Virus record (IMG/VR): IMGVR_UViG_3300030101_000994
Span: 1-58,301 of that record
DNA: 58,301 nt
Direction: 5' to 3' (one strand)
From: a virus
A program made the position numbers and the translations under genes. The number at the start of each line of letters is the position of its first letter. Within the stretch, counting starts at the first letter, position 1. This document shows positions 1,296-51,973 of this stretch, piece by piece. The notes under the pieces were generated by a model. It did not search any database, was not told where the DNA came from, and saw only the letters and a list, made by a program, of their open reading frames with translations.

Positions 1296-3467
1296 ATGCT
1301 TAGTGAAGTCCAGATTGTTGGAGGAATAAATAAACAAGTTACACCTACAGGTGCACAAGGTAAATGGGTTGATTGCGATAACGTAAGATTTCGTTATGGT
1401 TTTCCAGAAAAAATAGGTGGATGGGAACAAACAACTTCAAGCACTATAGTGGGTGTTGCTAGAGATATGCACATTTGGAGTGATATAGTTGGTAAAAGAT
1501 ACATAGCCATAGGAACTAATAAAGGTTTGTTTATATATCATGATGGATCTATGTACGATGTATCTCCGTTAGATACAAACATAACTTCTTGTACATTAAC
1601 CACTACTAACAATTCTGCAACAGTTACTGTTAACAAAGCAGCACATGGGCTAGAAATAGGTGATTTATTTTTATTTTCTAGTGTTACATTACCAGGTGGA
1701 GGCACTGGTTTTGTTAGTGCAGATTTTACACAAAATACTTTTGAAGTAATAACAAGAACTTCTGATACATTTACTGTAACAGCTGGTAAAGTAGAATCTG
1801 GTGCTGGGTTCAGTGCTGGAGGTAGTGTTACTTTAACTCCATACTTTAAAGTTGGTGATGCGGTACAAGTAACGGGTTATGGTTTTGGTACAGGTCTTTA
1901 CGGTGGTACAAACCCCACAATAACAAGCACAACATTAAACGGGTTGTTAAATGATGACACAAATGGAACAGGAGGTTCAGGCACAACAATCACATTAACA
2001 TCGGTCTCAGGATTTAGTAGTGGTGGCGGCACTTTAAAAGTAGGGGAAGAATTAATAACTTATACAGGTGTAGCAGGTAGCACTGTCACAGGAATTGTAA
2101 GAGGAGCTTCTGGTTCTACAAGATCTGCTCATGATAGTGGTGCTGTTGTACAAGAAGCCTCAAACTTTACAGGGTGGGGAGATGCCTCACCGACTGGTGA
2201 AGTAACATTAGAACCAGGAAACTGGTCATTAGATAACTTTGGTCAAATATTAGTTGCGACTGTAAAAAACAATAAGACTTTTCAATGGAATCCGAGCAGT
2301 GCCTCGGCTCTGTCAACGAGAGCTACAGTTATAACAAACGCACCAATACAAAGCGTGATGACTGTAGTATCTGACAGAGATAGACATTTAATACATTTAG
2401 GCACTGAAACCACAGTAGGTACAAACTCTCAAGATAAAATGTTTATACGTTTTGCAGATCAAGAAAACTTTGAAGATTATACTCCTACCTCAACAAATAC
2501 TGCTGGCACATTTAGAATAGATAGCGGTACAAAAATAGTAGGTGCAGTAAATGCAGGTAGTTATATTTTAATACTAACTGATACATCTGCATATACGATG
2601 CAATTTGTTGGTCCTCCTTTTACATTTGCTATTCAACAAGTTGGGGCAAATTGTGGTTTAATATCACAACATGCTATAGTAGCAGTTAACGGAGTGGTTT
2701 ACTGGATGGGTCAAGCTGGTGGTTTTTATGTATATGATGGAACGGTAAAAAAAATAGATTGTCAAGTAGAGGATTTTGTTTTTACTACGCAAGATGAAGA
2801 TGATTTAGGTATGAATTTTGATGCGGCAAATGTTGTATATGCTGGTTATAATTCTTTGTTTAGTGAAATAAATTGGTTTTACCCTAAGGCAGACTCTCTT
2901 CAAATTGATAGAGTGGTTAGTTACAATTACAAAGAGGGACTTTGGACTATAGGATCATTATCTAGAACAACTTATTATGATAAGACTATATATGATAATC
3001 CTTATGCAACAGAGTACAGCACCACTACCATACCTAATTTTCCCATCATACAAGGAGCTACAGCTACTAATGGAGCTACAACTTTATATGCTCATGAGAA
3101 AGGAACTAATCAAGTTAAAAATGATGGAAGCATAACTGCAATTGTAGGCAGTATTGAAAGTGGAGATTTTGAAGTTGAAAGTGGTGGTACTGTAAGAGGT
3201 GAAATTTTCATGAAAATAAGAAGATTTATACCTGATTTTAGAGCATTGTCTGGTAACGCTAAAATAACTTTAAATTTAAAAGATTTTCCTAGCGACACTG
3301 AAGCTAGTAGTAGTTTAGGACCCTTTACCATATCTTCTGCTACTCAAAAAGTAGACACTAGAGCTAGAGCTAGAGCTGTAAGTTTAAAAATAGAAAACGT
3401 TACTACAAATGAAAACTGGAGATATGGAACATTTAAAGCTGACGTTCAACCAGATGGTAGGCGATGA
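1296..3467 (+). CDS. Large beta-rich tail protein (tail hub / stabilisation protein-like)
   Basis: A 723-residue Gly/Thr/Ser-rich protein. The start (VQIVGGINKQ, then DCDNVRFRYGFPEKIGGWEQ) is typical of podoviral tail proteins with a beta-propeller core, such as T7 gp12 or P22 gp10-like stabilisation proteins. Residues of about 220-290 form an inserted Ig-like stretch (KVGEELITYTGV, IVRGASGST). Aromatic motifs such as NGVVYWMGQAGGFYVYDG follow further on. It starts 4 bases after the previous gene and is followed by small genes. The exact orthology is inference; a structural tail role is likely. Confidence 0.65.
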   Translation: MLSEVQIVGGINKQVTPTGAQGKWVDCDNVRFRYGFPEKIGGWEQTTSSTIVGVARDMHIWSDIVGKRYIAIGTNKGLFIYHDGSMYDVSPLDTNITSCTLTTTNNSATVTVNKAAHGLEIGDLFLFSSVTLPGGGTGFVSADFTQNTFEVITRTSDTFTVTAGKVESGAGFSAGGSVTLTPYFKVGDAVQVTGYGFGTGLYGGTNPTITSTTLNGLLNDDTNGTGGSGTTITLTSVSGFSSGGGTLKVGEELITYTGVAGSTVTGIVRGASGSTRSAHDSGAVVQEASNFTGWGDASPTGEVTLEPGNWSLDNFGQILVATVKNNKTFQWNPSSASALSTRATVITNAPIQSVMTVVSDRDRHLIHLGTETTVGTNSQDKMFIRFADQENFEDYTPTSTNTAGTFRIDSGTKIVGAVNAGSYILILTDTSAYTMQFVGPPFTFAIQQVGANCGLISQHAIVAVNGVVYWMGQAGGFYVYDGTVKKIDCQVEDFVFTTQDEDDLGMNFDAANVVYAGYNSLFSEINWFYPKADSLQIDRVVSYNYKEGLWTIGSLSRTTYYDKTIYDNPYATEYSTTTIPNFPIIQGATATNGATTLYAHEKGTNQVKNDGSITAIVGSIESGDFEVESGGTVRGEIFMKIRRFIPDFRALSGNAKITLNLKDFPSDTEASSSLGPFTISSATQKVDTRARARAVSLKIENVTTNENWRYGTFKADVQPDGRR

Positions 3468-3470
3468 TGT

Positions 3471-3782
3471 ATGGATATAAAAAATGTTGTTAGTTTTAAG
3501 GATGAAAAAATATGGAAAAGTGATCACACCTCTAATCCATATGCTATAGTTTTAAACGCTGCAAAAATATGGAAGTTTTCAAAACACGAATGGCCTGATC
3601 AGTATAAATTTTATTACGAATTAATTAAAGAAAATGAAAAAGAATTTAGGTGGGGTTTAGATAAACAAAAAGCTATTAAGGTGTTTATTATGAAAGAACA
3701 CTATTATTTTGCAGCTCCTCCTGATATAATATATAAAGTTTTAAGAAAAGAACCTGAAAAAAAGAAAGGTAAGCGTGGATGA
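3471..3782 (+). CDS. Hypothetical protein, 103 aa
   Basis: Tightly packed between the large tail protein (3 bases away) and the next small gene, which it overlaps by 4 bases. It is Lys- and Trp-rich (KIWKFSKHEWPDQYKFYYEL) with a basic Lys/Arg tail. No domain recognised. Its position in the structural operon suggests a virion or assembly role. Confidence 0.7.
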   Translation: MDIKNVVSFKDEKIWKSDHTSNPYAIVLNAAKIWKFSKHEWPDQYKFYYELIKENEKEFRWGLDKQKAIKVFIMKEHYYFAAPPDIIYKVLRKEPEKKKGKRG

Positions 3783-3907
3783 AAAAAACTAAAAATAAAA
3801 TAAAAAAAGTTATCAAAGGATTAAAAAAAGCTTCAAAATTACATGCAAGTCAAGCTAAAACATTAACGGGAGTGATAAGTGGCAGATCCAAAAAAAGGAA
3901 AAGGTAA
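3779..3907 (+). CDS. Small basic protein, 42 aa
   Basis: ATG at 3779 overlaps the previous stop in an ATGA arrangement. The product is almost all Lys, Arg and small residues (KKVIKGLKKASKLHASQAKT). I remember similar short peptides with the KGLKKASKLHA core in marine phage genomes. Overlaps the next gene by 29 bases. Function unknown; nucleic acid or virion binding is possible from the charge. Confidence 0.6.
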   Translation: MKKTKNKIKKVIKGLKKASKLHASQAKTLTGVISGRSKKRKR

Positions 3908-5459: not shown

Positions 5460-5766
5460 ATACGATAGGTTTTATTACAATCCATTACCAGAACAATTAA
5501 TGTTAGGTGTAAGCCGTACTCATGGACATGGTGTTTTTGCAAAATGTGATTTACCAAAAAAATATGATTTAGGTATGAGTCATATTAAAATACCTATAAT
5601 ACATGGCTATGTTAGAACTCCGATGGGAGGGTTTTTAAACCATAGTGAAGAACCTAATTGTCGTTTGTTCATAGATTTAGATTGGGATGATTATCTAGTA
5701 TATAAAGTTATTACTATTAAAAAGATAAAACAAGGTCAAGAGTTGTTATTAGAGTATGGTTCATGA
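5449..5766 (+). CDS. SET-domain protein (putative protein lysine methyltransferase)
   Basis: Minimal SET domain of 105 residues. The signature NHSEEPNC (64-71) matches the SET NHS/C motif that forms part of the S-adenosylmethionine pocket, and GQELLLEYG (96-104) matches the C-terminal GEEL-x-x-x-Y-G motif with the catalytic Tyr. The N-terminal GVFAKCDL corresponds to the first SET strand (G-x-G-x-F). Free-standing SET proteins in phages are rare but occur in marine viruses. Substrate unknown; host translation or chromatin-like proteins are only speculation. Confidence 0.8.
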   Translation: MKIKYDRFYYNPLPEQLMLGVSRTHGHGVFAKCDLPKKYDLGMSHIKIPIIHGYVRTPMGGFLNHSEEPNCRLFIDLDWDDYLVYKVITIKKIKQGQELLLEYGS

Positions 5767-6695
5767 CTCCTTTGGGTGGCACAGAAATACAACATAGATT
5801 TTTATCACACTATGTTGATGACAGTTTATTAGATAACTTTCAAATATGTACATCAATACCAGGTAAAGTAGAATTAAGCAAAGATAAAATAAATATACTT
5901 TGGCAAAAAAATAGTCACGACCAACCTAATATATATCCGTGGTTTGAAGATAAAACTAATCATGACCAGTTTGATTGGTATGTTTTTAATAGTCATTGGA
6001 ATTATGAAAAATACAGATACAGGTTTGATATACCCACTCATAAATGTCACGTAATAAAAAATGGTGTGAATAACTTTCCTACACTTACACCTTTTAAAGA
6101 AGGTAATATGGTGCGTATGTTGTTTCATGTAACACCTTGGAGAGGACTAAATGTTTTATTAGGAGCTATGAGTTTATTAAAAGACTGTAATGTGCATGTA
6201 GATATTTTTAGTAGTTGTAAAATTTATGGAGATCAGTTTGAAAAAGAAAACGAAAGCAGGTATGAGCCTTTATACGAACAAGCTAGAAAGTTAGAAAATG
6301 TAACTTACATAGGATATAAAGAACATTCTTTCATACAAAAGTTTATGTATCGTTATCATATGTTTGCTTATCCAAGCACATGGGAGGAGACAAGTTGTAA
6401 TGCAGCTTTAGAAGCTATGGCTGCTGGATTATTTTGTATAGTTACAAACTTTGGAGCTTTGTATGAAACATGCTCCGAGTTTCCTGTATACGTTACCTAT
6501 GAGAAAGATACCAAAAGACTTGCTAGTAAATTTGCTACAGCTATCCGACAAGCAGTAAACACGATACACGAACCAGAGGTACAAGAACATTTAAAAATGC
6601 AACAAGAATTTGTTAAAAAGTTTTATAGTTGGGATAAGAAAAAATTAGAATGGACAAATTTTTTACAAGCTGCTTTAAATGACAGAAAAGGTTAA
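5763..6695 (+). CDS. Glycosyltransferase, GT-B fold (GT4-like)
   Basis: 310 residues. The C-terminal half carries the GT4 sugar-nucleotide signature E209-x7-E217 (EETSCNAALEAMAAG), preceded by FAYPSTW, and the mid-section has YVFNSHWNYEKY and HVIKNGV typical of the N-terminal acceptor domain and linker. The start overlaps the SET gene (ATGA). The N-terminus is short (TPLGGTEIQHR is the usual Gly-rich loop), so this is a compact member. Likely decorates a virion component or host surface sugar; pairs with the next glycosyltransferase. Confidence 0.85.
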   Translation: MTPLGGTEIQHRFLSHYVDDSLLDNFQICTSIPGKVELSKDKINILWQKNSHDQPNIYPWFEDKTNHDQFDWYVFNSHWNYEKYRYRFDIPTHKCHVIKNGVNNFPTLTPFKEGNMVRMLFHVTPWRGLNVLLGAMSLLKDCNVHVDIFSSCKIYGDQFEKENESRYEPLYEQARKLENVTYIGYKEHSFIQKFMYRYHMFAYPSTWEETSCNAALEAMAAGLFCIVTNFGALYETCSEFPVYVTYEKDTKRLASKFATAIRQAVNTIHEPEVQEHLKMQQEFVKKFYSWDKKKLEWTNFLQAALNDRKG

Positions 6696-16977: not shown

Positions 16978-17517
16978 ATGAGAAAAACTAAAGGGTACAG
17001 CAAAGGTGGTGCTAAAATGATGAGAGCCAGAGGTGGTAAGATGGCTAAAGGTTACTCAAAAGGCGGTGCAAGAATGATGAAAGCTATGGGTGGTAAAATG
17101 GCATCCAAAGGCGGCACAAGAATGATGCGTGCTATGAAAGGTAAAATGGCTAAAGGTTATTCTAAAGGTGGCACAAGAATGATGATGAAAGCTATGGGTG
17201 GCAAAATGGCTAAAGGTTACGCCAAAGGTGGATCTAAAATGATTAGAGCTCAAGGTGGTAAAGAGATTAAAAGACCTAAAAATATGATTAGTAGTGTTAG
17301 GACTATGAAAAAAGATCCTATGACTAAAAGACAATTGCAACTAGGTGGAGCAGGAGGAACTAGCAAACTAGCAAGTATGATTAATAAGTTACCAAGAGCT
17401 AGTAAATTAGCTTTATTAGGTGGTTTAACAGCAGGAACAATATCTCTTGTAAAAGAATTAAAACCTAAAGCCAAAGAAGCTGGAAGAAAACTTAGAAAAG
17501 CAAAAAACAAAAAATAA
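16978..17517 (+). CDS. Lys/Gly/Met tandem-repeat protein, 179 aa
   Basis: Residues 6-98 are five imperfect repeats of about 19 residues (consensus GYSKGGxxMMxAxGGKMAK). The rest is basic, with one hydrophobic stretch (LALLGGLTAGTISLV) near 140-155 and a Lys-rich end. Extremely basic and Cys-free. Small Gly-Gly-Lys repeat proteins occur in marine phage virions; DNA condensation or virion packing is inference. Ribosome binding site AAAGGAG. Confidence 0.7.
   Translation: MRKTKGYSKGGAKMMRARGGKMAKGYSKGGARMMKAMGGKMASKGGTRMMRAMKGKMAKGYSKGGTRMMMKAMGGKMAKGYAKGGSKMIRAQGGKEIKRPKNMISSVRTMKKDPMTKRQLQLGGAGGTSKLASMINKLPRASKLALLGGLTAGTISLVKELKPKAKEAGRKLRKAKNKK
16993..17271 (+). repeat. Five coding tandem repeats of about 54-60 bases
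   Basis: DNA behind the GYSKGG...GGKMAK repeats, with unit lengths of 19, 18, 17, 20 and 19 codons. Units share phrases such as AAAGGTTACTCAAAAGGCGG with synonymous differences, so the array is not a very recent duplication. Confidence 0.75.
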
Positions 17518-21784: not shown

Positions 21785-23368
21785 ATGCACAGCAAACTCT
21801 TAAAAGTGTTTGCTGGGTATCAAGAATCACATGTTCAGTTCTCTCTTATAGAAGAGAGGACTGAAAGTGGTAAGGTGCAAGCTAAGTACGTTACTGTAAA
21901 GAAGCCTGTCACTGCTGATATTTGGAAACAACATCTTGAAGGCAAGATTAGAATAGGTATACGACCTGAACATGAAGGTAAGTGTAGTTGGTCTTGTATT
22001 GATGTTGATCCCGCTAATTACAAAGATTATTCACAGAAAAAATATGTAGACATTATAGGTAAGTATAAGCTACCTCTTGTGCCCGTATTATCCAAGAGTG
22101 GTGGTTTACACATTTTTGTTTTTTTTAACAAACCTCACAGTATACAAAAAGTAAAAGATAAGTTGTGTGAAATAAATGAACAATATTTTTTAGCTAATGA
22201 AGTTTATCCGTGCAATAAGACTATAAATATGCCTTATTGTAATCACAAGAGAACAAGAGAATTTGCTTACGATGATGAGAATTATCCACTTAGTTTAGAA
22301 AGATTTTTAGAAGAGGTAGAAAATAAAACTGTAGATCCAGAAGACTTTTGTCAGATAGAGGTTAAAGAAAATGAAATAGAATCTGATTGGTCACACTATC
22401 CTCCTTGTGTACAAAAACTTATACAAGAGGGATGGTCTGGTAATAACAGACATCAGTTTTTATATAATGTGGTGGTATTAGAAATAAAAAAACAGCCAAG
22501 CATATCTTTACCAGATTTAGAAACTTTAATACTGCAGCGTAACATAAAGATATTTACAAAACCTTTACCAGAACAAGAGGTTCGCACAATGGTAAAGTCC
22601 ATACATAAAGAAGGGTATGGTTTTCAATGTCCACCTAAACATATTGAGTATCAGGTAATATGTAACAAAGAATTATGTAAAACTAGAAAATTAGGCACGG
22701 GTGATTACGTGCCTGATATTATAGATGATTTTACAGATATAGCGTATATCCAAGATACTAAAAATACATTTTATGAATTTACATTTAAAGATAAACACGT
22801 ATCTGTAACACCAGAAGATATGAAAGATGAAAAAAGTTGGCGAGTTAAATTATTACGATACAGAATATATTGGTTGACTTTACCAAAACCACGAAAAGGG
22901 CCAAGTCCTTTTGAATTACTTATGAAGGGTATCGTAGAAAAGTCTGTTGAAAGTAAAGAACATGCTTACGTAGATACACTAGAAGAAGAAAGATATTTAA
23001 TATTAAAAGATTTTTTTGAAAATCATATAGAGCAAGATAAGTTTGATAAATTAAAAGACTCTTACATAGTTTTAGATAGTAAAACTAATGTATGTTATTT
23101 TAAGAAGTATACTTTAGATAGGTTTTTAAAAAAGAATAGTTCGAAAGCATTTAACAACACACAAGATGCTTTACGAGTATTAGGTTGTAAACGAAAAGAC
23201 TATCACGAAGGTGAAAAGAATGTTTGGTATGTTGAAATGCCAGAGTTTGTAAGACACGAAAGTATTAAGAAAGAAGTAGTAAAAGAAAAAGTAACGGAAA
23301 TGGATGATGAATACCACAGTAAATTTAGGACTACAAAAGCAAAAGCAGATATACAAAAAAACAATTAA
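21785..23368 (+). CDS. DNA primase, archaeo-eukaryotic (AEP) type
   Basis: 527 residues. SCIDVDP holds the metal-binding D73-x-D75, and SKSGGLHIFVFF (103-114) the S-x-H nucleotide-binding motif, the two hallmarks of the AEP superfamily. MPYCNHKRTREFAYDD follows at the expected place of the third motif. Residues beyond 190 match a PriCT-like helical region (SGNNRHQFLYNVVV, EQEVRTMVKSIHKEGY). The C-terminal 200 residues are unassigned. It would prime phage DNA synthesis; no bacterial DnaG-type zinc or TOPRIM motif is present in the window. Confidence 0.8.
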   Translation: MHSKLLKVFAGYQESHVQFSLIEERTESGKVQAKYVTVKKPVTADIWKQHLEGKIRIGIRPEHEGKCSWSCIDVDPANYKDYSQKKYVDIIGKYKLPLVPVLSKSGGLHIFVFFNKPHSIQKVKDKLCEINEQYFLANEVYPCNKTINMPYCNHKRTREFAYDDENYPLSLERFLEEVENKTVDPEDFCQIEVKENEIESDWSHYPPCVQKLIQEGWSGNNRHQFLYNVVVLEIKKQPSISLPDLETLILQRNIKIFTKPLPEQEVRTMVKSIHKEGYGFQCPPKHIEYQVICNKELCKTRKLGTGDYVPDIIDDFTDIAYIQDTKNTFYEFTFKDKHVSVTPEDMKDEKSWRVKLLRYRIYWLTLPKPRKGPSPFELLMKGIVEKSVESKEHAYVDTLEEERYLILKDFFENHIEQDKFDKLKDSYIVLDSKTNVCYFKKYTLDRFLKKNSSKAFNNTQDALRVLGCKRKDYHEGEKNVWYVEMPEFVRHESIKKEVVKEKVTEMDDEYHSKFRTTKAKADIQKNN

Positions 23369-36621: not shown

Positions 36622-38094
36622 ATGCAAAAAGAAAATTTACCTGTAGAAAAACTGAGGCTCGAAGTAGAGAGGCTCTTGTTAAAACACATCAAGTTATGTC
36701 AAGACAATTTTTTATATTTTGTACAAGAGATCTGGCCTGATTTTATATGTAGAAAAGAAAAAGAAAAAAGTAAGTGGGGACATCATCAGATTATTGCAAA
36801 TGAATTTACAAATATAGCAAAAGAAAGAAAAGGAAGGCTCATAATAAACATGCCTCCTAGACATACCAAATCAGAATTTGCTTCTGTTTATTTTCCAGCG
36901 TGGATCATAGGAAAGTATCCAAAATTAAAAATTATGCAAGTATCACACAATACAGAACTTGCAGTACGATTTGGAAGCAAGGTTCGTAATATTATTGACT
37001 CACCAGAGTACAAACAAATTTTTGGAGACGTAAAACTTCGTGAGGACTCCAAGGCAAAAGGAAGATGGGAAACTAATCAAGGTGGAGAATATTACGCCGC
37101 GGGCGTTGGTGCGAGTATCACGGGTCGTGGAGCTGATTTACTGATTATTGATGATCCACACACGGAACAAGATTCCATGTCTGATATGGCTATGGAACGT
37201 GCATACGATTGGTACACTTCAGGACCACGACAAAGATTACAACCTGGAGGCTCAATATTATTGGTAATGACAAGATGGGCTGAAGATGATTTGACAGGAC
37301 GATTGTTGAAGGCTCAAACGGAACCTAAAGCAGATACATGGCGACAAATTTCTTTTCCTGCGATCCTCGGATCTGGGAACCCAGTTTGGCCAGAGTATTG
37401 GGAACTAGAAGAATTAGAAAAGATAAAAGCTTCTGTTCCGATAAGAAACTGGTCAGCTCAATATATGCAAGAACCAACTTCCGAAGAAGGTGCGATCATT
37501 AAACGTGAATGGTGGCAACCTTGGGAGAAGGAAAGTATACCGAACTTAGTACACGTGATACAAAGTTATGACACAGCGTTTAGTAAAAAAGAAACAGCTG
37601 ACTATTCTGCGATTACGACTTGGGGTGTTTTTTATCCTGATGAGATTACACCAAATATTATTTTGTTAGATGCGATACGTGGCAAGTATGATTTTCCCGA
37701 GTTGAAAGTGGTAGCGTTAGATGCGTACAAATACTGGGAGCCCGAATCGGTGATCGTGGAACAAAAAGCAAGTGGCGAGCCGTTGACACAAGAGTTTCGC
37801 AGAATGGGTATTCCTGTGATTCCGTTTGTTCCTACACGAGGTAATGACAAACATGCACGAGTCAATTCTATTGCACCGTTGTTTGAAAGTGGTGCTGTGT
37901 GGTTTCCGTTTGGTGAAAAGTTTGCCGATGATGTGATTGACGAATGTGCTGCTTTTCCACACGGAGCAAATGACGATTATGTAGACTCTACGAGTCAGGC
38001 ACTTTTAAGGTACAGACAAGGCAACTTTGTTGAGTTATACTCAGACTATGTTGATGATTTTGATAGACCAGTAAAAAATTATAGTTATTATTAG
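36622..38094 (+). CDS. terL: Terminase large subunit
   Basis: 490 residues. ATPase: Walker A PPRHTKSE (78-85), Walker B LLIIDDPH (173-180), coupling MTRW (216-219). Nuclease (RNase H-like): SYDTAF (Asp317), VIVEQKASG (Glu380), and NDDYVDSTSQAL (Asp residues around 451-455). All catalytic parts are present. It cuts and translocates DNA into the procapsid at the portal. A TATAAA box sits 9 bases before the ATG and no ribosome binding site is seen, so a very short leader is possible; the upstream terminator means it needs its own promoter. Confidence 0.95.
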   Translation: MQKENLPVEKLRLEVERLLLKHIKLCQDNFLYFVQEIWPDFICRKEKEKSKWGHHQIIANEFTNIAKERKGRLIINMPPRHTKSEFASVYFPAWIIGKYPKLKIMQVSHNTELAVRFGSKVRNIIDSPEYKQIFGDVKLREDSKAKGRWETNQGGEYYAAGVGASITGRGADLLIIDDPHTEQDSMSDMAMERAYDWYTSGPRQRLQPGGSILLVMTRWAEDDLTGRLLKAQTEPKADTWRQISFPAILGSGNPVWPEYWELEELEKIKASVPIRNWSAQYMQEPTSEEGAIIKREWWQPWEKESIPNLVHVIQSYDTAFSKKETADYSAITTWGVFYPDEITPNIILLDAIRGKYDFPELKVVALDAYKYWEPESVIVEQKASGEPLTQEFRRMGIPVIPFVPTRGNDKHARVNSIAPLFESGAVWFPFGEKFADDVIDECAAFPHGANDDYVDSTSQALLRYRQGNFVELYSDYVDDFDRPVKNYSYY

Positions 38095-38097
38095 TCT

Positions 38098-38373
38098 ATG
38101 AAAAGAAGAAGTAGTGATCTAGCACCTCTGAGTGAATGGGCAGGAAGATGGGCAGATTACAATTTATATCAACGATATGGAAAACTATGGAGAATAGTAA
38201 AATGTTACAAAAACTTAAAACAATATTTCAAAAAATTAAAAAAAGACTTTTTGGTAAACTATGCGAATGTAAGCCAAAGAAAAGAGGCAGAGGTAGACCA
38301 AAAAAATCATGAGTCTAAAGAAAAGAGGATTACGAGCTTTAGCAGATTTTTTTTCAAGAAGAAAAACTCCTGA
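38098..38373 (+). CDS. Possible small protein, 91 aa, overlapping two other frames
   Basis: Starts 4 bases after TerL: RRSSDLAPLSEWAGRWADYN, LYQRYGKLWRIVKC. The first 40 residues look protein-like; the rest is Lys/Phe-rich and lies in a different frame over the AT-hook gene (38202) and the start of the 846-residue gene. Either the true product is shorter, or a frameshift joins it to the AT-hook frame. Low certainty on the 3' part. Confidence 0.4.
   Translation: MKRRSSDLAPLSEWAGRWADYNLYQRYGKLWRIVKCYKNLKQYFKKLKKDFLVNYANVSQRKEAEVDQKNHESKEKRITSFSRFFFKKKNS
38202..38312 (+). CDS. Small AT-hook-like basic protein, 36 aa
   Basis: Frame MLQKLKTIFQKIKKRLFGKL, then CECKPKKRGRGRPKKS. The C-terminal RGRGRPKK is a classic AT-hook core binding the minor groove of AT-rich DNA. 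Its stop overlaps the next gene's ATG (ATGA). I recall similar short proteins next to TerL in marine phages. Confidence 0.55.
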   Translation: MLQKLKTIFQKIKKRLFGKLCECKPKKRGRGRPKKS

Positions 38374-40849
38374 AGCACCGCCGACACAAACAAGCACTGT
38401 TTCTACAGAGGCTCAGAGTTTAGAAGATGAGATCCGTAAAAGTCCTTTAACTAAAGAACGAGATCCGTTTTTACCAGCTCCACAAAAGCAAAGAGAGATA
38501 GCTCCATCAAGAGTGCGTCTTGAGCAAGAAGAACTTGATGAACAGATAAACTTATCGAAACAAAGAAGAAAACGAGCAGAAGAAAAACCTTTTGAGGATG
38601 TACACGTTTCACACAGAGGAGTATCTCCTGTAGAAGAATATTCTACAGTGCCTCGAGATGCGATGCCCTCGGGTTCTTCTTTGTATCAATACATATCTGC
38701 ACATCCTAGTGACAAACCACTAGCTGCAAAAGAATGGATTCGTTATTTAAAAAAAGGTATACAAAAAGGAGATCGTGTCAAAGTAGATAATCCTAATTTA
38801 AAAAATATAGATACAAGTATATCAAAAGAAGAACTTGCTGATTCTAATTTATTAGTATTAGAACCTGCTACAATAAAACCTACTTTTCGTTTAAAAAAAT
38901 TTGATACCAAACCCATAGATACTCCATCAAAGTTTGAAGAAAATTTAGAAGTGGGAGGGTATTTAAAAAGTGCAGAGAGTATAAATGCAAAATTAACAAA
39001 AGAAGAATTGTTAGGTATGGTTGCAGATCAACCAATGGCAAGAGCAAAAGTTACAGTTTTGGGATACCAAAATGTTCCTCAAATTGTAAAAGCAATTGAT
39101 GACGGACATGAAAAATTATTAGAACTAGGAACAAAAAATAATGCAATCATTAACAAAGCTATAGACGATGTTGATTCATTTGTAAATTTAACCGCACAAC
39201 AAAAGGAAGCTCTCAAAGCTAACTTAATGAATTTATTAGTTGTACCTACTTCAAGGTCAGGAGGAGTTACACCTTTTACTGCAATTCAAACACTTATTAA
39301 AGAAGGTAATCAAGTTAGTTTAAAACCTGCTGAAGTGGATGTTATGTTTGAATCAGCCATAAGACATTTATATGATAATTTACCATCTGAAGATAATCTA
39401 TTAAAACAAATTAAACTTCCTGGAAATAATCAAAGATTTGGAGAATTGTTTGGTGAAAATAAAAAAATGCTAGATACGCTTTTTTTATCTGGAGGAACAG
39501 ATTTAGGAGAAGCTTTTACTATACAAAAAGAAATAAAAAAAATTGCAGAGAGAACTAAAGATGATGTTGTAGGATCATTTTCTAATCCAAAATTTTTTCC
39601 TTCTGTTTATGGAAACGCTTCTTCCTATCGTATAACAGGTGGAGAAGAGTATATAGAATTTGTTACAAGAGTTCCTGATCCACAAGGAGTGATTGTTCGG
39701 TCAGGGGGACATTACGGTACTTTAACAGGACCTGATGGAGTGGCACAAAATTTACGACAACAAGCTTTGGCACATACAAGAGGACATATACGTTTTACAA
39801 AAGATGGTAAAAAAGTTTTTCTTATTGATGAACACCAGTTAGATAAGCAACAAAAGATAGGAGTGAAACTTGCACGTAAACCAGAACTAAGAAGATTAAA
39901 TCCGTACAACAGAGATTACTTTGATAATGTGGCTGGTTCACCAACTGAATCTTTAGTTACTGCACAAAAGAAAAAGTTACTAGAACAAATGACAAAATTA
40001 GACAAAGGTGTGCGAACAAGTGATGCAGACTTACAAGAAATAGAACGCATACGAGATCGTTTAGCAAATGTAGACGGACAGAAAAAATTCCATAACTTAG
40101 ATAATAATATGTTTGTTGAGGAATATAACAAGTTACTGAATCAAGAAGGTATAGAGTATCAACCTATGTTGCAAGAACATAGAAACTATACCATAAAAAT
40201 GTTATCAAAATATTTTGCAAAAGAAAGACCAGACATAGATTATATAGGCGTGGTTCCTTCTGAAATAAGTGGTGCTGCAAAAGGCCGAGGAACTGCTGCT
40301 GACTTTTCTCAATATGGAACTTTCTTAGGTAAAGCTGGTGCTAGACTAGATGGTAAAGTTTTGCGAGGACAAAGTTCAGGTACAAGTTCTGAAAGAAGAT
40401 TAACAAAACCTGATCAAGATTCTAGTTTTATGAAAGCGATGAAAAGTTTTGCAAAAAATTATAATGGCAAAATTGTAAAAGTAGATGTGGCACGAAGCGA
40501 TCCTAAAAAACAATATAAAGTATTAGCTAGAGAGAAAGCAAACACAAATACAGAAGGTTCTGATTTAGTAGAACAAAGATTAAAAGGAATGAAAATACAA
40601 GCACATGGCCCGATGACAGAACCTTATGTAGAACATCTTGGTGCGTTTAAAACTGATGCAGAAGCAGAATCGTTTAAAAATTTAGCAGGAATAAGTGGAA
40701 CTAAGTCTATAATACCTGATTCTAGTGCTACATCCAGATCATTGTATGACAAATATATTTTACTAGAACTGCCAAAAGATTTGGACAAAACTCCTGTGAA
40801 GATATATAAAAGCAAAGGGGGTCTAGTCGTAGACCTATTTAAATGGTAG
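38309..40849 (+). CDS. Polyvalent-type protein, 846 aa
   Basis: Basic N-terminus, disordered charged region (to about 100), then helical and mixed domains. Around residues 440-515 the sequence GGEEYIEFVTRVPDP, HYGTLTG, AHTRGHIRFT and KVFLIDEHQLDKQQKIG matches the layout of a domain found in phage polyvalent proteins (GGxNYxEx...LAHIRF...DGKKVLFIEExQSD). Such large proteins are delivered with the genome and act on the host early. The position between TerL and portal is unusual. A second conserved-looking section is KMLSKYFAKERPDIDYIGVV (640-660). Substrates unknown. Confidence 0.55.
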   Translation: MSLKKRGLRALADFFSRRKTPEAPPTQTSTVSTEAQSLEDEIRKSPLTKERDPFLPAPQKQREIAPSRVRLEQEELDEQINLSKQRRKRAEEKPFEDVHVSHRGVSPVEEYSTVPRDAMPSGSSLYQYISAHPSDKPLAAKEWIRYLKKGIQKGDRVKVDNPNLKNIDTSISKEELADSNLLVLEPATIKPTFRLKKFDTKPIDTPSKFEENLEVGGYLKSAESINAKLTKEELLGMVADQPMARAKVTVLGYQNVPQIVKAIDDGHEKLLELGTKNNAIINKAIDDVDSFVNLTAQQKEALKANLMNLLVVPTSRSGGVTPFTAIQTLIKEGNQVSLKPAEVDVMFESAIRHLYDNLPSEDNLLKQIKLPGNNQRFGELFGENKKMLDTLFLSGGTDLGEAFTIQKEIKKIAERTKDDVVGSFSNPKFFPSVYGNASSYRITGGEEYIEFVTRVPDPQGVIVRSGGHYGTLTGPDGVAQNLRQQALAHTRGHIRFTKDGKKVFLIDEHQLDKQQKIGVKLARKPELRRLNPYNRDYFDNVAGSPTESLVTAQKKKLLEQMTKLDKGVRTSDADLQEIERIRDRLANVDGQKKFHNLDNNMFVEEYNKLLNQEGIEYQPMLQEHRNYTIKMLSKYFAKERPDIDYIGVVPSEISGAAKGRGTAADFSQYGTFLGKAGARLDGKVLRGQSSGTSSERRLTKPDQDSSFMKAMKSFAKNYNGKIVKVDVARSDPKKQYKVLAREKANTNTEGSDLVEQRLKGMKIQAHGPMTEPYVEHLGAFKTDAEAESFKNLAGISGTKSIIPDSSATSRSLYDKYILLELPKDLDKTPVKIYKSKGGLVVDLFKW

Positions 40850-40873: not shown

Positions 40874-41881
40874 ATGGGTTCAAAATATAAAATAGGAAAA
40901 GCTTTTTATTCAGAAATAAAAGAAAGTATTGGTGACTTAGGTAGAAGATATAGAAAAGAAACTGGTAAAAAAAGAGCTAGTATTGAGGATAAAGAGTTTA
41001 GAAAAATAATACAAGACAGAGTCAATAGAACACTTGAAGCTGATCGTTATGTAAAAAAATCCTTAAATGGTAGTACAAAAAAATATAATGAATTAATGAA
41101 AGTTAGAGATAAATTTAGTGGTGGAGGCACAATGAATAAGAAAAAGAAAAAAACAAAAGATCCTTTAGTAAAAAAATATGAAAGAATTAGAAACACAATA
41201 ATCGCTGCACCAGAGGTACAAGCGTTAGGTGAAGTCGTTAACGACTTGATTGGCATAGGAGGTTTTGATGATGGTGGTCTTAATGAAGGTATTAAATCAG
41301 TAAAAGCTAGTGAGAAACAAGCAGCTCCAGCAAGAAAAGCTGGGCAGATGCAAGCAGCTCCAGCAAGAAAAGCTGGGCAGATGCAAGCACCTCCCTCTGT
41401 AAGACCAAGTAAAAAACAACTTATACCACTAGACAAAATTAAAGGCAGAAGAAAACCTCTAGCCGATTTTAAAAGCAAAATGAAAAGAGCAAATGGTGGT
41501 TTGTTAAAAAAAGATAAAGCAAAATTGTCAAAAAAAGATAAAGCAAAACTAGCTGCATTAAAAACATATAGAAGAATAGCTCCTGCTGGTTCTGTAGCTG
41601 AAAGTGTGTATACTAAAATTACGGGAAAAAGAATACCTAGTGCATCTGATGTTTTTGGTAAACAATATAATATAAAAGGAAAACCCATTGGTAAAAATAA
41701 AATGAAAAGAGCAGAGGGTGGTTTTACGGATAATAGAAAAAAAATAGATAAGGCTCCTCCTTTTGGAGTTATTAATGCAGATGATTTTAAAGCCTTAAAA
41801 GCTATGAAAAAAAAATCAAATGGCGGATCTATTATGGTGCCAGTAAAGATGGGAAAAAATAAAATAACTAAAATAATGTAA
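40874..41881 (+). CDS. Lys-rich protein with short internal duplications, 335 aa
   Basis: Strongly basic. Contains an exact duplication of AAPARKAGQMQ (about residues 150-170), a second duplication KKDKAKLSKKDKAKL (about 214-228), and three short Gly-Gly motifs (KRANGGLL, KRAEGGFT, KSNGGSIM). Ends MVPVKMGKNKITKIM. Clear AGGAG ribosome binding site. Low complexity precludes family assignment; a virion DNA-binding role is a guess from charge and position before the portal. Confidence 0.65.
   Translation: MGSKYKIGKAFYSEIKESIGDLGRRYRKETGKKRASIEDKEFRKIIQDRVNRTLEADRYVKKSLNGSTKKYNELMKVRDKFSGGGTMNKKKKKTKDPLVKKYERIRNTIIAAPEVQALGEVVNDLIGIGGFDDGGLNEGIKSVKASEKQAAPARKAGQMQAAPARKAGQMQAPPSVRPSKKQLIPLDKIKGRRKPLADFKSKMKRANGGLLKKDKAKLSKKDKAKLAALKTYRRIAPAGSVAESVYTKITGKRIPSASDVFGKQYNIKGKPIGKNKMKRAEGGFTDNRKKIDKAPPFGVINADDFKALKAMKKKSNGGSIMVPVKMGKNKITKIM
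41318..41383 (+). repeat. Perfect tandem duplication of 33 bases
   Basis: Two identical 33-base units, 41318-41350 and 41351-41383, encoding the QAAPARKAGQM repeat; a third start (CAAGCACCTCC) follows at 41384. Perfect identity indicates a recent slippage event. Confidence 0.85.
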
Positions 41882-41885
41882 CTAT

Positions 41886-44240
41886 ATGGTTGATGCAAAT
41901 TTAAATCCTGAGATTGAAGAAGAGGAGGTTGCACCTGAAGGTTTACCTGAAGTAGAAATAGAAGAAGAGGTAGAACAAGAAGAGCAACAAGAAACACAAG
42001 ATTTTAGTGAAGAACAAGAAGCAATAGAATTTTTTTCTAATTTAGCAGAAGAATTAGACGAGAGAGTTTTATCTTCGTTAGCTAACGATCTTATAGCAGA
42101 TTATAAAAAAGATAAAGAATCCAGAAGCGATTGGGAACAAGCGTACATTAAAGGATTAGACTTACTCGGTTTTAAATACACAGAAGAAGCAGGTCCTTTT
42201 TTGGGAGCATCCTCTGTTACACATCCTTTACTAGCAGAATCTATTACACAGTTTCAAGCACAAGCCTATAAAGAATTATTACCAGCTAATGGCCCGGTAA
42301 AAACACAAGTGGTAGGAGAACGAACAGCTGAAAGAAATGAACAAGCTCAAAGAGTAAAAGAATTCATGAACTATATGTTGACAGATAAAATGGAAGAATA
42401 CACTCCTGAGTTTGATCAGATGTTATTTTATTTACCCTTAGCAGGTTCTGCATTTAAAAAAGTTTATTATGATGAAGTGATGCAAAGAGCAGTAAGTAAA
42501 TTTGTTCCTGCTGAAGATTTAATTGTTCCGTATTATGCTACTGATTTGAGAGACTGCGATAGAATTACACACATTTTAAAAATGAGTGAAAATGACATTC
42601 TAAAAAAACAACGTGCAGGATTTTATAGAGATATAGATATTTTACCATCAAGAAGTGATGATGATGAAGTGCAATCTAAATATGATTCTATTGAGGGAGT
42701 ATCTGATACACAAGATACAGATTACCAATTTAATGTTTTAGAGATGCACGTAGATTTAGATATGGATGAATATGAGGTTGAAGATTCAGAGAAAAATGTA
42801 AAGCTTCCTTACATTGTAACTATTGATGAAGGATCACAAGAAATACTTTCTATCTACAGAAATTACAATATGAACGATACCACTTACAAAAGAAAAGATT
42901 TCTTTGTTCATTTTAAGTTTTTACCAGGTTTGGGATTCTATGGGTTTGGTTTAATTCATATGATTGGTGGATTATCTAGAGCGGCAACTGCCGCATTAAG
43001 ACAATTACTTGATGCGGGTACGTTAAGTAATTTACCAGCTGGATTTAAATCAAGAGGTATGCGAGTAAGAGATGACGATCAACCTTTTCAGCCCGGGGAG
43101 TTTAGAGATGTGGATGCACCAGGTGGAAACATAAGAGATCAATTTTTACCTCTACCTTTTAAAGAGCCTAGCACTACCTTGTTTAATCTTTTAGGATTTG
43201 TAGTACAAGCTGGTCAAAGATTTGCAGCGATTGCAGATTTACAAACAGGTAATGATAAACAAAATAGAGCAGTCGGATCTACACTAGCTTTGTTAGAACG
43301 TGGTTCAAGGGTTATGAGTGCAATACACAAGCGTTGTTATTACTCTATGCGACAAGAATTTAAATTATTATCTGTAGTATTTGGAACATATTTACCACCT
43401 GTGTATCCTTATGCAGTATATGGCGGTAATCGTTTTGTTAAACTAACCGACTTTAGTCAAGAAGTAGATGTGTTACCTGTAGCAGATCCAGATGTGTTTT
43501 CTTTATCACAAAGATTTACGATGGCTCAAGCACAATTACAAATCGCATCAAGTAATCCTGCGATGCACGATATGAGAGAAGCTTATTATAGGGTGTACGA
43601 AGCACTTGGCACTAAACAAATTAATAGTTTGTTGAAACCATCTACTAAACCTAAACCTACAGATCCTGCTATTGAAAACAGTAATGCAATGAAAGGTATG
43701 CCAATACAAGCTTTTGCTGACCAAGATCATGATGCACACATAGGAGCACATATAGCTTTTATGCAAACTCGTATGGTTCAGGTAAATCCAGCTGTATATG
43801 GAGCCTTACAAGCTCATATTATGGAACACATATCTTTCAAAGCCAGAGCTTTAGTGTTATTAGACTTACAACAAGATGCAAAGTTAAGTCAGTTAGCTCA
43901 AACTGATCCAAAAAGATTTGAAATTATTACAGAATCTAAAATAGCACAAACAATTAATGAATTAACACAAGGTTTAGCAGAGTTAGAAATGGGTACAACT
44001 AAGCCAGATCCATTAGTTGCTCTCAAACAAAGAGAATTAGATCTGAGAGCTTTAGATATTCAACGTAGACAAGCAGAATTTGCTACAACAGAGCAAAGAA
44101 AAATAGACGAATTTGAAGAAAAGATTGATTTAGATAAATTAAAAAGAGAAGATCAAGAGTTTCAAGCTCAAGAACGTATTAGAGTAGCTGATGATAAGGT
44201 AGATATAGCAAGGACAAAGGCAAATGAAACAAAAAAGTAA
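41886..44240 (+). CDS. Portal protein (head-tail connector)
   Basis: 784 residues. Acidic N-terminus, then DWEQAYIKGLDLLGFKY, AGPFLGASSVTHPLLAESI and QFQAQAYKELLPANGPVKTQ, characteristic of P22-like podoviral portals with TerL-proximal wing and stem. PEFDQMLFYLPLAGSAFKKV and LPPVYPYAVYGG follow. A long helical C-terminus (residues 680-784) would form the barrel and coiled coil. Twelve copies form the DNA gate in the capsid vertex. Overlaps the next gene by 17 bases. Confidence 0.88.
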   Translation: MVDANLNPEIEEEEVAPEGLPEVEIEEEVEQEEQQETQDFSEEQEAIEFFSNLAEELDERVLSSLANDLIADYKKDKESRSDWEQAYIKGLDLLGFKYTEEAGPFLGASSVTHPLLAESITQFQAQAYKELLPANGPVKTQVVGERTAERNEQAQRVKEFMNYMLTDKMEEYTPEFDQMLFYLPLAGSAFKKVYYDEVMQRAVSKFVPAEDLIVPYYATDLRDCDRITHILKMSENDILKKQRAGFYRDIDILPSRSDDDEVQSKYDSIEGVSDTQDTDYQFNVLEMHVDLDMDEYEVEDSEKNVKLPYIVTIDEGSQEILSIYRNYNMNDTTYKRKDFFVHFKFLPGLGFYGFGLIHMIGGLSRAATAALRQLLDAGTLSNLPAGFKSRGMRVRDDDQPFQPGEFRDVDAPGGNIRDQFLPLPFKEPSTTLFNLLGFVVQAGQRFAAIADLQTGNDKQNRAVGSTLALLERGSRVMSAIHKRCYYSMRQEFKLLSVVFGTYLPPVYPYAVYGGNRFVKLTDFSQEVDVLPVADPDVFSLSQRFTMAQAQLQIASSNPAMHDMREAYYRVYEALGTKQINSLLKPSTKPKPTDPAIENSNAMKGMPIQAFADQDHDAHIGAHIAFMQTRMVQVNPAVYGALQAHIMEHISFKARALVLLDLQQDAKLSQLAQTDPKRFEIITESKIAQTINELTQGLAELEMGTTKPDPLVALKQRELDLRALDIQRRQAEFATTEQRKIDEFEEKIDLDKLKREDQEFQAQERIRVADDKVDIARTKANETKK

Positions 44241-50910: not shown

Positions 50911-51210
50911 ATGACAAAATTATGCCCAAGAGGAAAAGCAGCAGCAAAAAGAAAGTTCAAAGTTTACCCCTCGGCCTATGCAAACGCTTACGCTTCAAAA
51001 ATTTGTGCAGGTAAAATAAAAGACCCGAGTGGAGTAAAACGTAAAGATTTTAAAGGACCTAAACCAGCAAAACAGGGAGGTGTTATGAATATGAATGACG
51101 GTGGTATGATGCCTCAAGGAACAGGTTCTTATATTAAACAAGATATAGACGGTGATGAAAGTTTTACAAACCCATCTACACAAGATTATTACAGAGATTT
51201 ATTAGGATAA
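50911..51210 (+). CDS. Small basic protein (KLCPRGKAAAKRKFKVYPSA type), 99 aa
   Basis: KLCPRGKAAAKRKFKVYPSA and YANAYASKICAGKIKDPSG form a basic Cys-containing domain that recurs in marine phages; the C-terminal half is acidic/Gly-rich (MMPQGTGSYIKQDIDGDE). Possibly nucleic acid-binding. Function unknown. Ends on the next gene's ATG. Confidence 0.7.
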   Translation: MTKLCPRGKAAAKRKFKVYPSAYANAYASKICAGKIKDPSGVKRKDFKGPKPAKQGGVMNMNDGGMMPQGTGSYIKQDIDGDESFTNPSTQDYYRDLLG

Positions 51211-51503
51211 TGTCTGGTTTAAAAAAATGGTTTGCTCAAAAGTGGGTAGACATTGGTAGTAAGAAAAAAGATGGCACATTTGCTAAATGTGGTAGAAGCA
51301 AACAAAAAGCAGATGCCAAAAGAAAATACCCAAAGTGTGTTCCTTTAGCAAAAGCTAGAAGAATGACTGAAGGACAAAGAAAAAGTGCTGTTAAAAGAAA
51401 AAGAGCAAAAGCACAAGGAGTTGGTGGTAAGCCAACTAATGTTAAAACGTTCACTGCTTACAAAGGTGGTTTAGCCGATAAATATTATGAAGGAGTTTTA
51501 TAA
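51210..51503 (+). CDS. Small basic protein (KKWF...KCGRS...KYPKCVP type), 97 aa
   Basis: GLKKWFAQKWVDIGSKKKDG, AKCGRS, RKYPKCVPLAKARRMTEGQR and GKPTNVKTF. Cys pairs in CGRS and PKCV plus high charge are conserved features of this type in marine phages. A DUF5872 relation is plausible but not verified. Shares one base with each neighbour. Confidence 0.7.
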   Translation: MSGLKKWFAQKWVDIGSKKKDGTFAKCGRSKQKADAKRKYPKCVPLAKARRMTEGQRKSAVKRKRAKAQGVGGKPTNVKTFTAYKGGLADKYYEGVL

Positions 51504-51973
51504 TGTCTAGAATGAAACAATTACAAGCTTTAGCCAAAGAAGCTAGGGAAAAAGGCGATAGAGATAAATATGAAATGATACGAGGAGACATATTTAAGGA
51601 GTTTGACTTTGACATAGGTAAGTTTGGTTTAGGTGGTCTTTTATATAAAAAAGGTAAAAAGTTATTAGAAAAATCAGGTTTAATTGATGACCTACCTTCT
51701 ATGTATCGTAAAATGCGAGATGCTAAAGATAAAGGTGATTTTAAAAAATTTAAAAAATACAAATCTAAATCTACAAACGTAGTAAAAGATAGTAAAAGTA
51801 TGAAACAGTTTCAAAAAGAGTTAGATGAAGATTTACCTTTACCAAAAAATTTTAAACCAACTAAAAAGAAACCAGAAGGTAAAGTAGTTAGTATAACAAA
51901 AAAAAGTATGGGTGGTGAAGTTAGGGGTATTGGTAAAGCTATCAGAGGTTTTAATTTTAAGGGTGTTAGATAG
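51503..51973 (+). CDS. Lys-rich hypothetical protein, 156 aa
   Basis: Helical charged N-terminus (QLQALAKEAREKGDRDKYE), then GKFGLGGLLYKKGKKLLEKS, a Lys-rich stretch and the end MGGEVRGIGKAIRGFNFKGV. The ending resembles that of the protein encoded at 44224. Part of the basic-protein block; function unknown. Confidence 0.65.
   Translation: MSRMKQLQALAKEAREKGDRDKYEMIRGDIFKEFDFDIGKFGLGGLLYKKGKKLLEKSGLIDDLPSMYRKMRDAKDKGDFKKFKKYKSKSTNVVKDSKSMKQFQKELDEDLPLPKNFKPTKKKPEGKVVSITKKSMGGEVRGIGKAIRGFNFKGVR

Follow-up and report, generated by a model that had tools for sequence, protein, structure and literature searches.

A solo polyvalent-associated protein encoded between TerL and portal of a pelagiphage, and its possible role as an entry effector

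What is the role of a large protein that a pelagiphage encodes between its terminase and portal genes? The question arises from virus record IMGVR_UViG_3300030101_000994, analysed from position 1 to 58,301 (58,301 bases, the window), in which an open reading frame (ORF) for 846 amino acids (aa) lies between TerL and portal. The portal is 63% identical to HTVC023P gp31 and 52% identical to the HTVC027P portal, and the window therefore represents an HTVC023P-like pelagiphage, a kind of virus that is abundant in the ocean. The sequence-only reading of this DNA had taken the 846-aa product for a stand-alone protein with a domain of polyvalent proteins, large effectors presumed to enter the host along with the DNA of viruses and plasmids. 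By profile comparison, the protein is homologous to a polyvalent-associated domain of phage and plasmid proteins. The earlier reading thus holds in part: the domain, its solo state and its location were supported, and the domain extent, given as residues 430-520, was not, since this span lies inside a larger homologous region of residues 427-655.

Homology to a domain of polyvalent proteins

Searches with the single 846-aa sequence gave nothing significant (best E 1.9 in Pfam, 0.087 in PHROGs and 0.5 in the PDB) and no match at E 0.01 in a phage collection. A 111-aa stretch returned four phage rows at E 6-9 only, and the family consensus none at E 10. The domain is therefore detectable only through a profile of the protein family, whose members are about 727-1047 aa long and were detected here in uncultivated relatives only. 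The gene and the parts of its product are as follows.

38309-40849, + strand: gene of the 846-aa solo polyvalent-associated protein, ATG start (ORF, family alignment, profile model and hhalign)
39065-39604, + strand: residues 253-432, predicted helical-bundle insertion (AlphaFold model, helical-bundle matches)
39587-40273, + strand: residues 427-655, sequence-homologous to the polyvalent-associated domain (hhalign 99.1, E 6.2e-19)
39779-39850, + strand: residues 491-514, putative active-site strands with R491, E508, Q510 and D512 (conservation)
40817-40846, + strand: residues 837-846, C-terminal tail GGLVVDLFKW (family tail matches, low model confidence)

Phage polyvalent proteins often bear an E[IV]QSDWHQ motif, and a scan of IMG/VR for this motif gave at least 120 loci with ORFs of 345-3429 aa. 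A hidden Markov model (HMM) of the family, from which the tail had been trimmed before use, matched every one of the 120 motif-selected ORFs at E<1e-3; 113 of them also passed E<1e-5, the best reaching 1e-23 (E computed for the set of 120). Because the motif had selected these ORFs, it was masked together with its neighbourhood, and 37 of the 120 still kept E<1e-3 (best 3.6e-12). Of the 120 reversed sequences none passed 1e-3, the lowest E being 0.047, and 488 non-family ORFs of at least 300 aa gave no E better than 0.98. The family set is delimited at 1e-5, and nothing falls between it and the non-family ORFs. Alignment of the family against the canonical domain alignment by hhalign gave a probability of 99.1% (E 6.2e-19, 187 columns, residues 427-655), and the layout YRITGGEEYIEF...HIRFTKDGKKVFLIDEHQ on which the domain had first been proposed is present in the translation.

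The family HMM also matched gp34 of the cultured phage HTVC028P (E 4.1e-13), which was retrieved by similarity and not by the exact motif, as well as the named phage MW202675 (3.5e-6) and a plasmid protein (3.9e-5). The 954-aa gp34 (L389:4237-7101, annotated as hypothetical) thus shares the domain, and HTVC028P has the same cultured host as HTVC023P; unlike the 846-aa gene, however, gp34 does not lie between TerL and portal in the stretch seen, and it lacks the KGG-type motif described below. A tblastn search with the canonical domain found five phage records, namely HTVC028P, Dolichospermum phage Dfl-JY45, MW202675 and two short matches in lysin-annotated genes, and four plasmid records, all from Pseudomonas aeruginosa. 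One of these plasmids encodes a 5000-aa protein with the domain near 3351-3818 (HMM match at 3580-3613); this protein also has ART-PolyVal in 12 stretches and, apart from the domain, LPD23 at 2261-2317.

Among Pfam and NCBIfam models no relevant one matched the domain. In seven canonical proteins no Pfam model matches the domain itself. The comparison with polyvalent domains proposed earlier succeeded by hhalign over 427-655; in the proteins scanned, no Pfam model of a large polyvalent protein associated domain (LPD) matched the domain. In 19 scanned family members LPD23 (PF18838) gave no match up to E 1, and the other Pfam matches were scattered and confined to single members (best DUF5856 at 6.4e-4; PBECR4 at 0.05 in one). 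NCBIfam models run on 9 proteins found nothing relevant, and profile searches of the PDB gave a best E of 0.075 with profile A1 and nothing at E 5 with profile A4. PHROG phrog_7348 (2564 positions, labelled endolysin) matches 6 of the 7 canonical proteins, and in L286, also canonical, the domain is fused to ART-PolyVal. A second domain was not recognised in the 846-aa protein by Pfam, either in itself or across the 19 members, in agreement with the view that it stands alone.

The protein thus combines a domain of the polyvalent repertoire with a gene position adjoining virion genes. Iyer et al. 2017 (PMC5512222) report that GNATs, LPDs and solo domains are encoded close to virion genes. The 846-aa protein resembles their polyvalent proteins in its homologous domain, which co-occurs with ART-PolyVal and LPD23 in other proteins, and in its late-gene context; it differs in being solo, and in a domain unmatched by Pfam LPD models in the proteins scanned.

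The starting set for a tree of the domain consisted of the 40 family rows and the 120 motif-selected ORFs, 160 sequences in all. Ten motif ORFs were excluded as too short around the motif, and the 110 of the remaining 150 sequences with at least 130 aligned core positions were kept as rows. The pelagiphage family forms one split with support 0.993.

Predicted fold and conserved residues

The 846-aa protein was modelled with AlphaFold (AF2) at a predicted local distance difference test score (pLDDT) of 69.7 and a predicted template modelling score (pTM) of 0.74. Foldseek comparison with viral models returned uncultured Caudovirales proteins (best E 3.1e-9), among them one whose name refers to an LPD (E 1.9e-5). 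A compact canonical domain, that of L287, gave pLDDT 88.1 and pTM 0.83. In the VIA-align comparison of this domain 35 of 50 rows were limited to helices at residues 169-336, mostly to an inserted hairpin (265-336), and the remaining 15 were all GNAT-type. The best GNAT rows were 8g8k (Z 10.1, root mean square deviation 3.5, 150 aligned), 6edz (Z 9.6), NatD (Z 8.0) and TacT2 (Z 7.9); ICL2, TacT and GmvT are GNATs. With the 846-aa model, 6 of 50 rows belonged to the same superfamily at Z 7.1-8.1 over residues 107-838, around the helical insertion, and the predicted fold probably uses parts of this region. Two groups of PDB matches were discarded as common arrangements: those between the 846-aa model and helical bundles (253-432) and those between the compact domain and coiled coils (265-336).

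The GNAT assignment is consistent across these models, if not strong. In its compact domain the predicted fold resembles GNAT acetyltransferases such as the C-terminal domain of ICL2, NatD and the TacT toxins (Z 7.9-10.1); it departs from them in having no sequence match to a PDB chain, no visible canonical CoA loop and its own invariant H, R, E, Q and D. The modelled domain is read here as a scaffold resembling GNATs that bears conserved polar residues of its own. Across 40 aligned family representatives Y440, H468, R491, E508, Q510, Y669, G670, S730 and K737 are invariant, and D512 is nearly so (at least 90% of the 40 rows). The residues of the canonical domain that align with R491, E508, Q510 and D512 are invariant in 73 canonical rows, and H468 is a further invariant polar residue outside the putative active-site strands. 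GNAT-like chemistry, that is acyl transfer, possibly in a changed form, may be expected from the model. As a precedent, phage GNATs such as Rac acetylate RNA polymerase (PMC7824862).

The ORF is a real gene under purifying selection. Compared with L003, whose protein is 85% identical (the other aligned relatives are 19-27% identical), the ratio of nonsynonymous to synonymous substitution rates is 0.235 overall, 0.220 in codons 1-105, 0.334 in codons 106-430 and 0.149 in the aligned codons from 431 to the end.

A predicted fold that suggests an enzyme would also suit a late cytoplasmic enzyme that is never packaged and, for example, modifies host or phage proteins during assembly, and position in the late operon is by itself no proof of packaging. 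Such a role appears quite unlikely, as a plasmid polyvalent protein and a gene beside an annotated internal virion protein both carry relatives of the domain, and as Iyer et al. infer delivery from a similar context (PMC5512222).

The TerL-portal slot

The 846-residue protein lies in the packaging operon between terminase and portal, as had been read from the sequence, and the slot runs in the order TerL, 91-aa ORF, 846-aa ORF, 335-aa ORF and portal.

36622-38094, + strand: TerL, upstream border of the slot (phrog_38, E 7.3e-119)
38098-38373, + strand: 91-aa slot ORF that shares 65 bp with the start of the 846-aa gene (conserved in L003 at 81% identity)
40874-41881, + strand: 335-aa basic slot protein with repeated GG motifs and C-terminal VPVKMGKNKITKIM (clusters with small slot proteins of relatives)
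41886-44240, + strand: portal, downstream border of the slot (phrog_1216, E 5e-49)

The content of the slot varies among close relatives. In a TerL scan of IMG/VR, the best 80 of at least 591 loci contained 71 complete TerL-portal slots, of which 24 hold a family member, 40 hold small ORFs only (80-299 aa) and 7 hold nothing of at least 80 aa; the family is absent from 47 of the 71. In nine contigs with a family-free slot (15.7-59.5 kb, fragments included) the family HMM found no member elsewhere, and the gene was recovered in 4 of 4 positive controls. With 47 of 71 slots lacking it and no copy elsewhere in the nine contigs, the family is dispensable.

Other occupants are found in more distant phages. 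Among the 120 motif-selected loci, 28 have a TerL, portal or capsid homologous to that of the window; 23 of these show a portal match, which in 21 begins 135-234 bp downstream of the ORF with the polyvalent domain. The portal of one phage of this first set served as query for a second set, and 75 of its 80 loci were used, L393-L397 being the query itself or 95-100% identical to it. In this sister lineage TerL lies upstream of portal in 69 of the 75 loci, and all 69 complete slots contain an ORF of 567-2393 aa. The family HMM matches 14 of 73 slot ORFs and none of 751 non-slot ORFs, and among 28 slot representatives ART-PolyVal was matched in 12, PcfJ in 7, DUF7178 in 3, ParB_N in 1 and DUF3990 in 1. 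A PcfJ protein is likewise found in the slot of DSL-LC04, and in Pag-Yong1, which lacks the family, the TerL-portal gap is 192 bp. In view of these variable occupants, ART-PolyVal and PcfJ proteins of sister phages included, the slot has the look of a bay for effectors whose content changes, and the 846-aa protein would be a solo occupant of it. The domain tree does not support the idea that the pelagiphage family descends from polyvalent proteins located in the slot, nor does it show a shared slot ancestry.

A gene that adjoins portal, shares its slot with small basic proteins and has a long helical insertion in its model might instead encode an accessory of morphogenesis or of the ejection conduit, an internal structural protein associated with the portal and no effector. 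We regard this as unlikely, since 47 of the 71 complete slots in close relatives would lack such a part, as would Pag-Yong1, where 192 bp separate TerL and portal, and since the slots of sister phages bear ART-PolyVal, PcfJ and ParB_N domains.

Further genes were noted in the slot. A 53-member cluster of basic proteins (83-335 aa) is encoded just upstream of portal in the window (40874-41881) and in L006-L085; many end in VKCKLGKNKKTRIT-like tails, and they occur with or without a large ORF. A third cluster of small slot proteins consists of L012:2863-3177 and 7 related ORFs, most with the C-terminus KKNKGGLLVTPKLAKRGF/Y or a close variant. A second large slot ORF, L287:5120-8566 (- strand, 1149 aa), adjoins the canonical polyvalent-domain ORF; it contains KGG-type motifs, and Pfam gave no match to it.

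The C-terminal tail and a possible route into the virion

The family shares a tail of the YKxGGLVVDIFKW type, which stands at the C-terminus of 68 of 71 unique full-length ORFs; the three ORFs without it may be truncated or frame-shifted. In the 846-aa model this tail (residues 837-846) has pLDDT below 50 and is probably disordered. A strict DNA-pattern scan for the tail was examined for 80 of at least 119 stretches, and 79 of the 80 matches belong to family members, where they stand 0-1 residue ahead of the stop. At this strictness a tag common to unrelated proteins was rejected, the one other match (25 aa) being too short to judge.

A looser motif, approximately [Y/F/M][A/K]xGGxV, resembles the tail and is frequent in slot proteins and in some other late proteins. 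The pattern used to count this KGG-type motif, [YFMLA][AKSTE].GG.[VIAM], was defined after the first set had been inspected, and it leaves the 846-aa protein unmatched owing to one extra residue (Y-K-S-K-GG-L-V). In the first set the motif occurs in 21 of 28 slot-linked polyvalent ORFs (54 occurrences against 3.8 in shuffled sequences) and in 18 of 92 unlinked ones (20 against 16.3). The corresponding Fisher p of 1.3e-7 ignores relatedness, and slot-linked ORFs cluster on the tree, where the slot-linkage label changes 8 times and shuffled labels change at least 14 times. After dereplication of the first set at 50% identity, the motif is present in 26 of 66 slot proteins (57 occurrences against 5.1) and in 16 of 538 non-slot proteins (21 against 12.8).

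For the second set, 10 slot and 402 non-slot ORFs at least 50% identical to first-set proteins were dropped. The motif was found in 21 of 25 slot representatives (53 occurrences against 4.6 shuffled) and in 14 of 180 non-slot representatives, where its 72 occurrences (5.1 shuffled) are denser than in the slot. Exclusivity of the loose motif to the slot was consequently abandoned, as the non-slot density exceeds the slot density. Of all 751 non-slot ORFs in the second set 73 carry the motif, 72 of them on the same strand downstream of portal. A multi-copy KGG protein of 335-476 aa, with 6-12 copies, is encoded about 4-5 kb downstream of portal; it accounts for 33 of these ORFs (69 loci, L398-L467) and for most of the occurrences outside the slot. 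A 179-aa basic protein of the window (16978-17517, + strand), made of repeated GYSKGGA+MM / A.GGKMA units, is similar to it in style. Two small proteins of the window (51210-51503 and 51503-51973, both + strand) have GG motifs near the C-terminus (YKGGLADKYYEGVL; KKSMGGEVRG). Neither HTVC028P gp34 nor the plasmid protein has a KGG-type motif, though both bear the domain, and the motif therefore seems to belong to the virion type rather than to the domain.

Among 28 slot representatives the motif occurs anywhere in 26 and within the last 70 aa in 13; in slot proteins it sometimes stands shortly after the domain. Such motifs might be cleavage sites of a maturation protease that splits slot proteins into domains, and not packaging tags. 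The presence of several motifs per protein, some soon after the end of a domain, fits this idea, and processing of polyvalent proteins is proposed by Iyer et al. (PMC5512222). We nevertheless think it improbable, because the pelagiphage motif is at the extreme C-terminus, where a cut would shed only about 10 residues. Short packaging signals have a precedent in P1 DarB, of which the N-terminal 30 residues suffice to send a reporter to the capsid (PMC9024508). Like DarB and the T4 internal proteins with capsid targeting sequences, which are packaged anti-host proteins with a short terminal signal, the 846-aa protein may carry such a signal; the candidate here is C-terminal or lies between domains, and differs in sequence.

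On this evidence our preferred and fairly probable reading is that the 846-aa protein is a slot-encoded, single-domain member, with a GNAT-like fold, of a domain family of polyvalent proteins, and that it probably acts at entry. It would be made late in infection, drawn by its C-terminal tail into the prohead near the portal and ejected along with the DNA, and it would then modify or bind a host component in the first minutes of infection. Virion packaging, injection and a host target are what we infer; the computed support consists of the domain homology, the slot position, the variable slot content, the conserved polar residues, the conserved tail and purifying selection. That gp34 of HTVC028P adjoins an annotated putative internal virion protein also speaks for this reading.

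Several points weigh against it. Sequence homology is established for residues 427-655 only, and the W and H of the canonical EIQSDWHQ are replaced in the 846-aa protein. In the domain tree the family is no nearer to slot-located than to other polyvalent domains. At least two different activities per polypeptide are expected of a polyvalent protein, and since only one domain is recognised here, we count the protein among the solo carriers of a polyvalent-associated domain rather than among strict polyvalent proteins. The best five viral Foldseek matches have low template modelling scores over the query (0.17-0.24). GNATs have an acyl-CoA loop Q/RxxGxG/A after strand 4, which is not visible in the tree-group consensuses read by eye; the best PDB row in Foldseek for the compact domain, SSAT, is also a GNAT, but at E 0.14; and Z values below 8 may reflect a common arrangement. 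The fold and CoA binding are therefore uncertain. The domain gene is not directly upstream of portal in L297, L335 and MW202675 (in the last it follows portal), and no family match came from the isolates HTVC023P and HTVC027P, which lack the domain, or from a further five named members of the portal lineage. Virion proteomics or expression data for the gene were not found.

More broadly, and as a tentative idea only, the portal lineage may own a modular system of effector delivery. An interchangeable slot would hold unrelated large effectors (GNAT-like, ART, PcfJ, ParB), the [Y/F/M][A/K]xGGxV motif, which also occurs in many copies in a late protein, would serve as an address for loading into the head, and the pelagiphage protein would be a one-domain cargo with a C-terminal address. 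A description of the slot or of the KGG motif was not found in the open-licence literature, in which the motif letters themselves were not searched. In the accessible text of an 80-genome study of HTVC023P-type phages (PMC9599517) no passage deals with the slot, 'portal' being absent and 'terminase' occurring once, and the part available of a transcriptome study of HTVC027P (PMC12753301) names no gene of the slot.

Elsewhere the window encodes a group 1 glycosyltransferase (5763-6695) and a primase-like protein with a TOTE-type archaeo-eukaryotic primase domain (21785-23368, PF22548), after which come a UvrD-like helicase and DNA polymerase A. A search of the window for transfer RNAs found none.

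The analysis places a family of about 727-1047 aa proteins among likely entry effectors and provides it with a predicted fold and candidate catalytic residues, so that its function becomes testable. The domain, unmatched by Pfam and NCBIfam models, is a recurrent one in phage polyvalent proteins, and the slot position lets further effectors be read off by location. Should the KGG-type motif prove to direct loading, it would add a new address by which proteins can be brought into phage heads.

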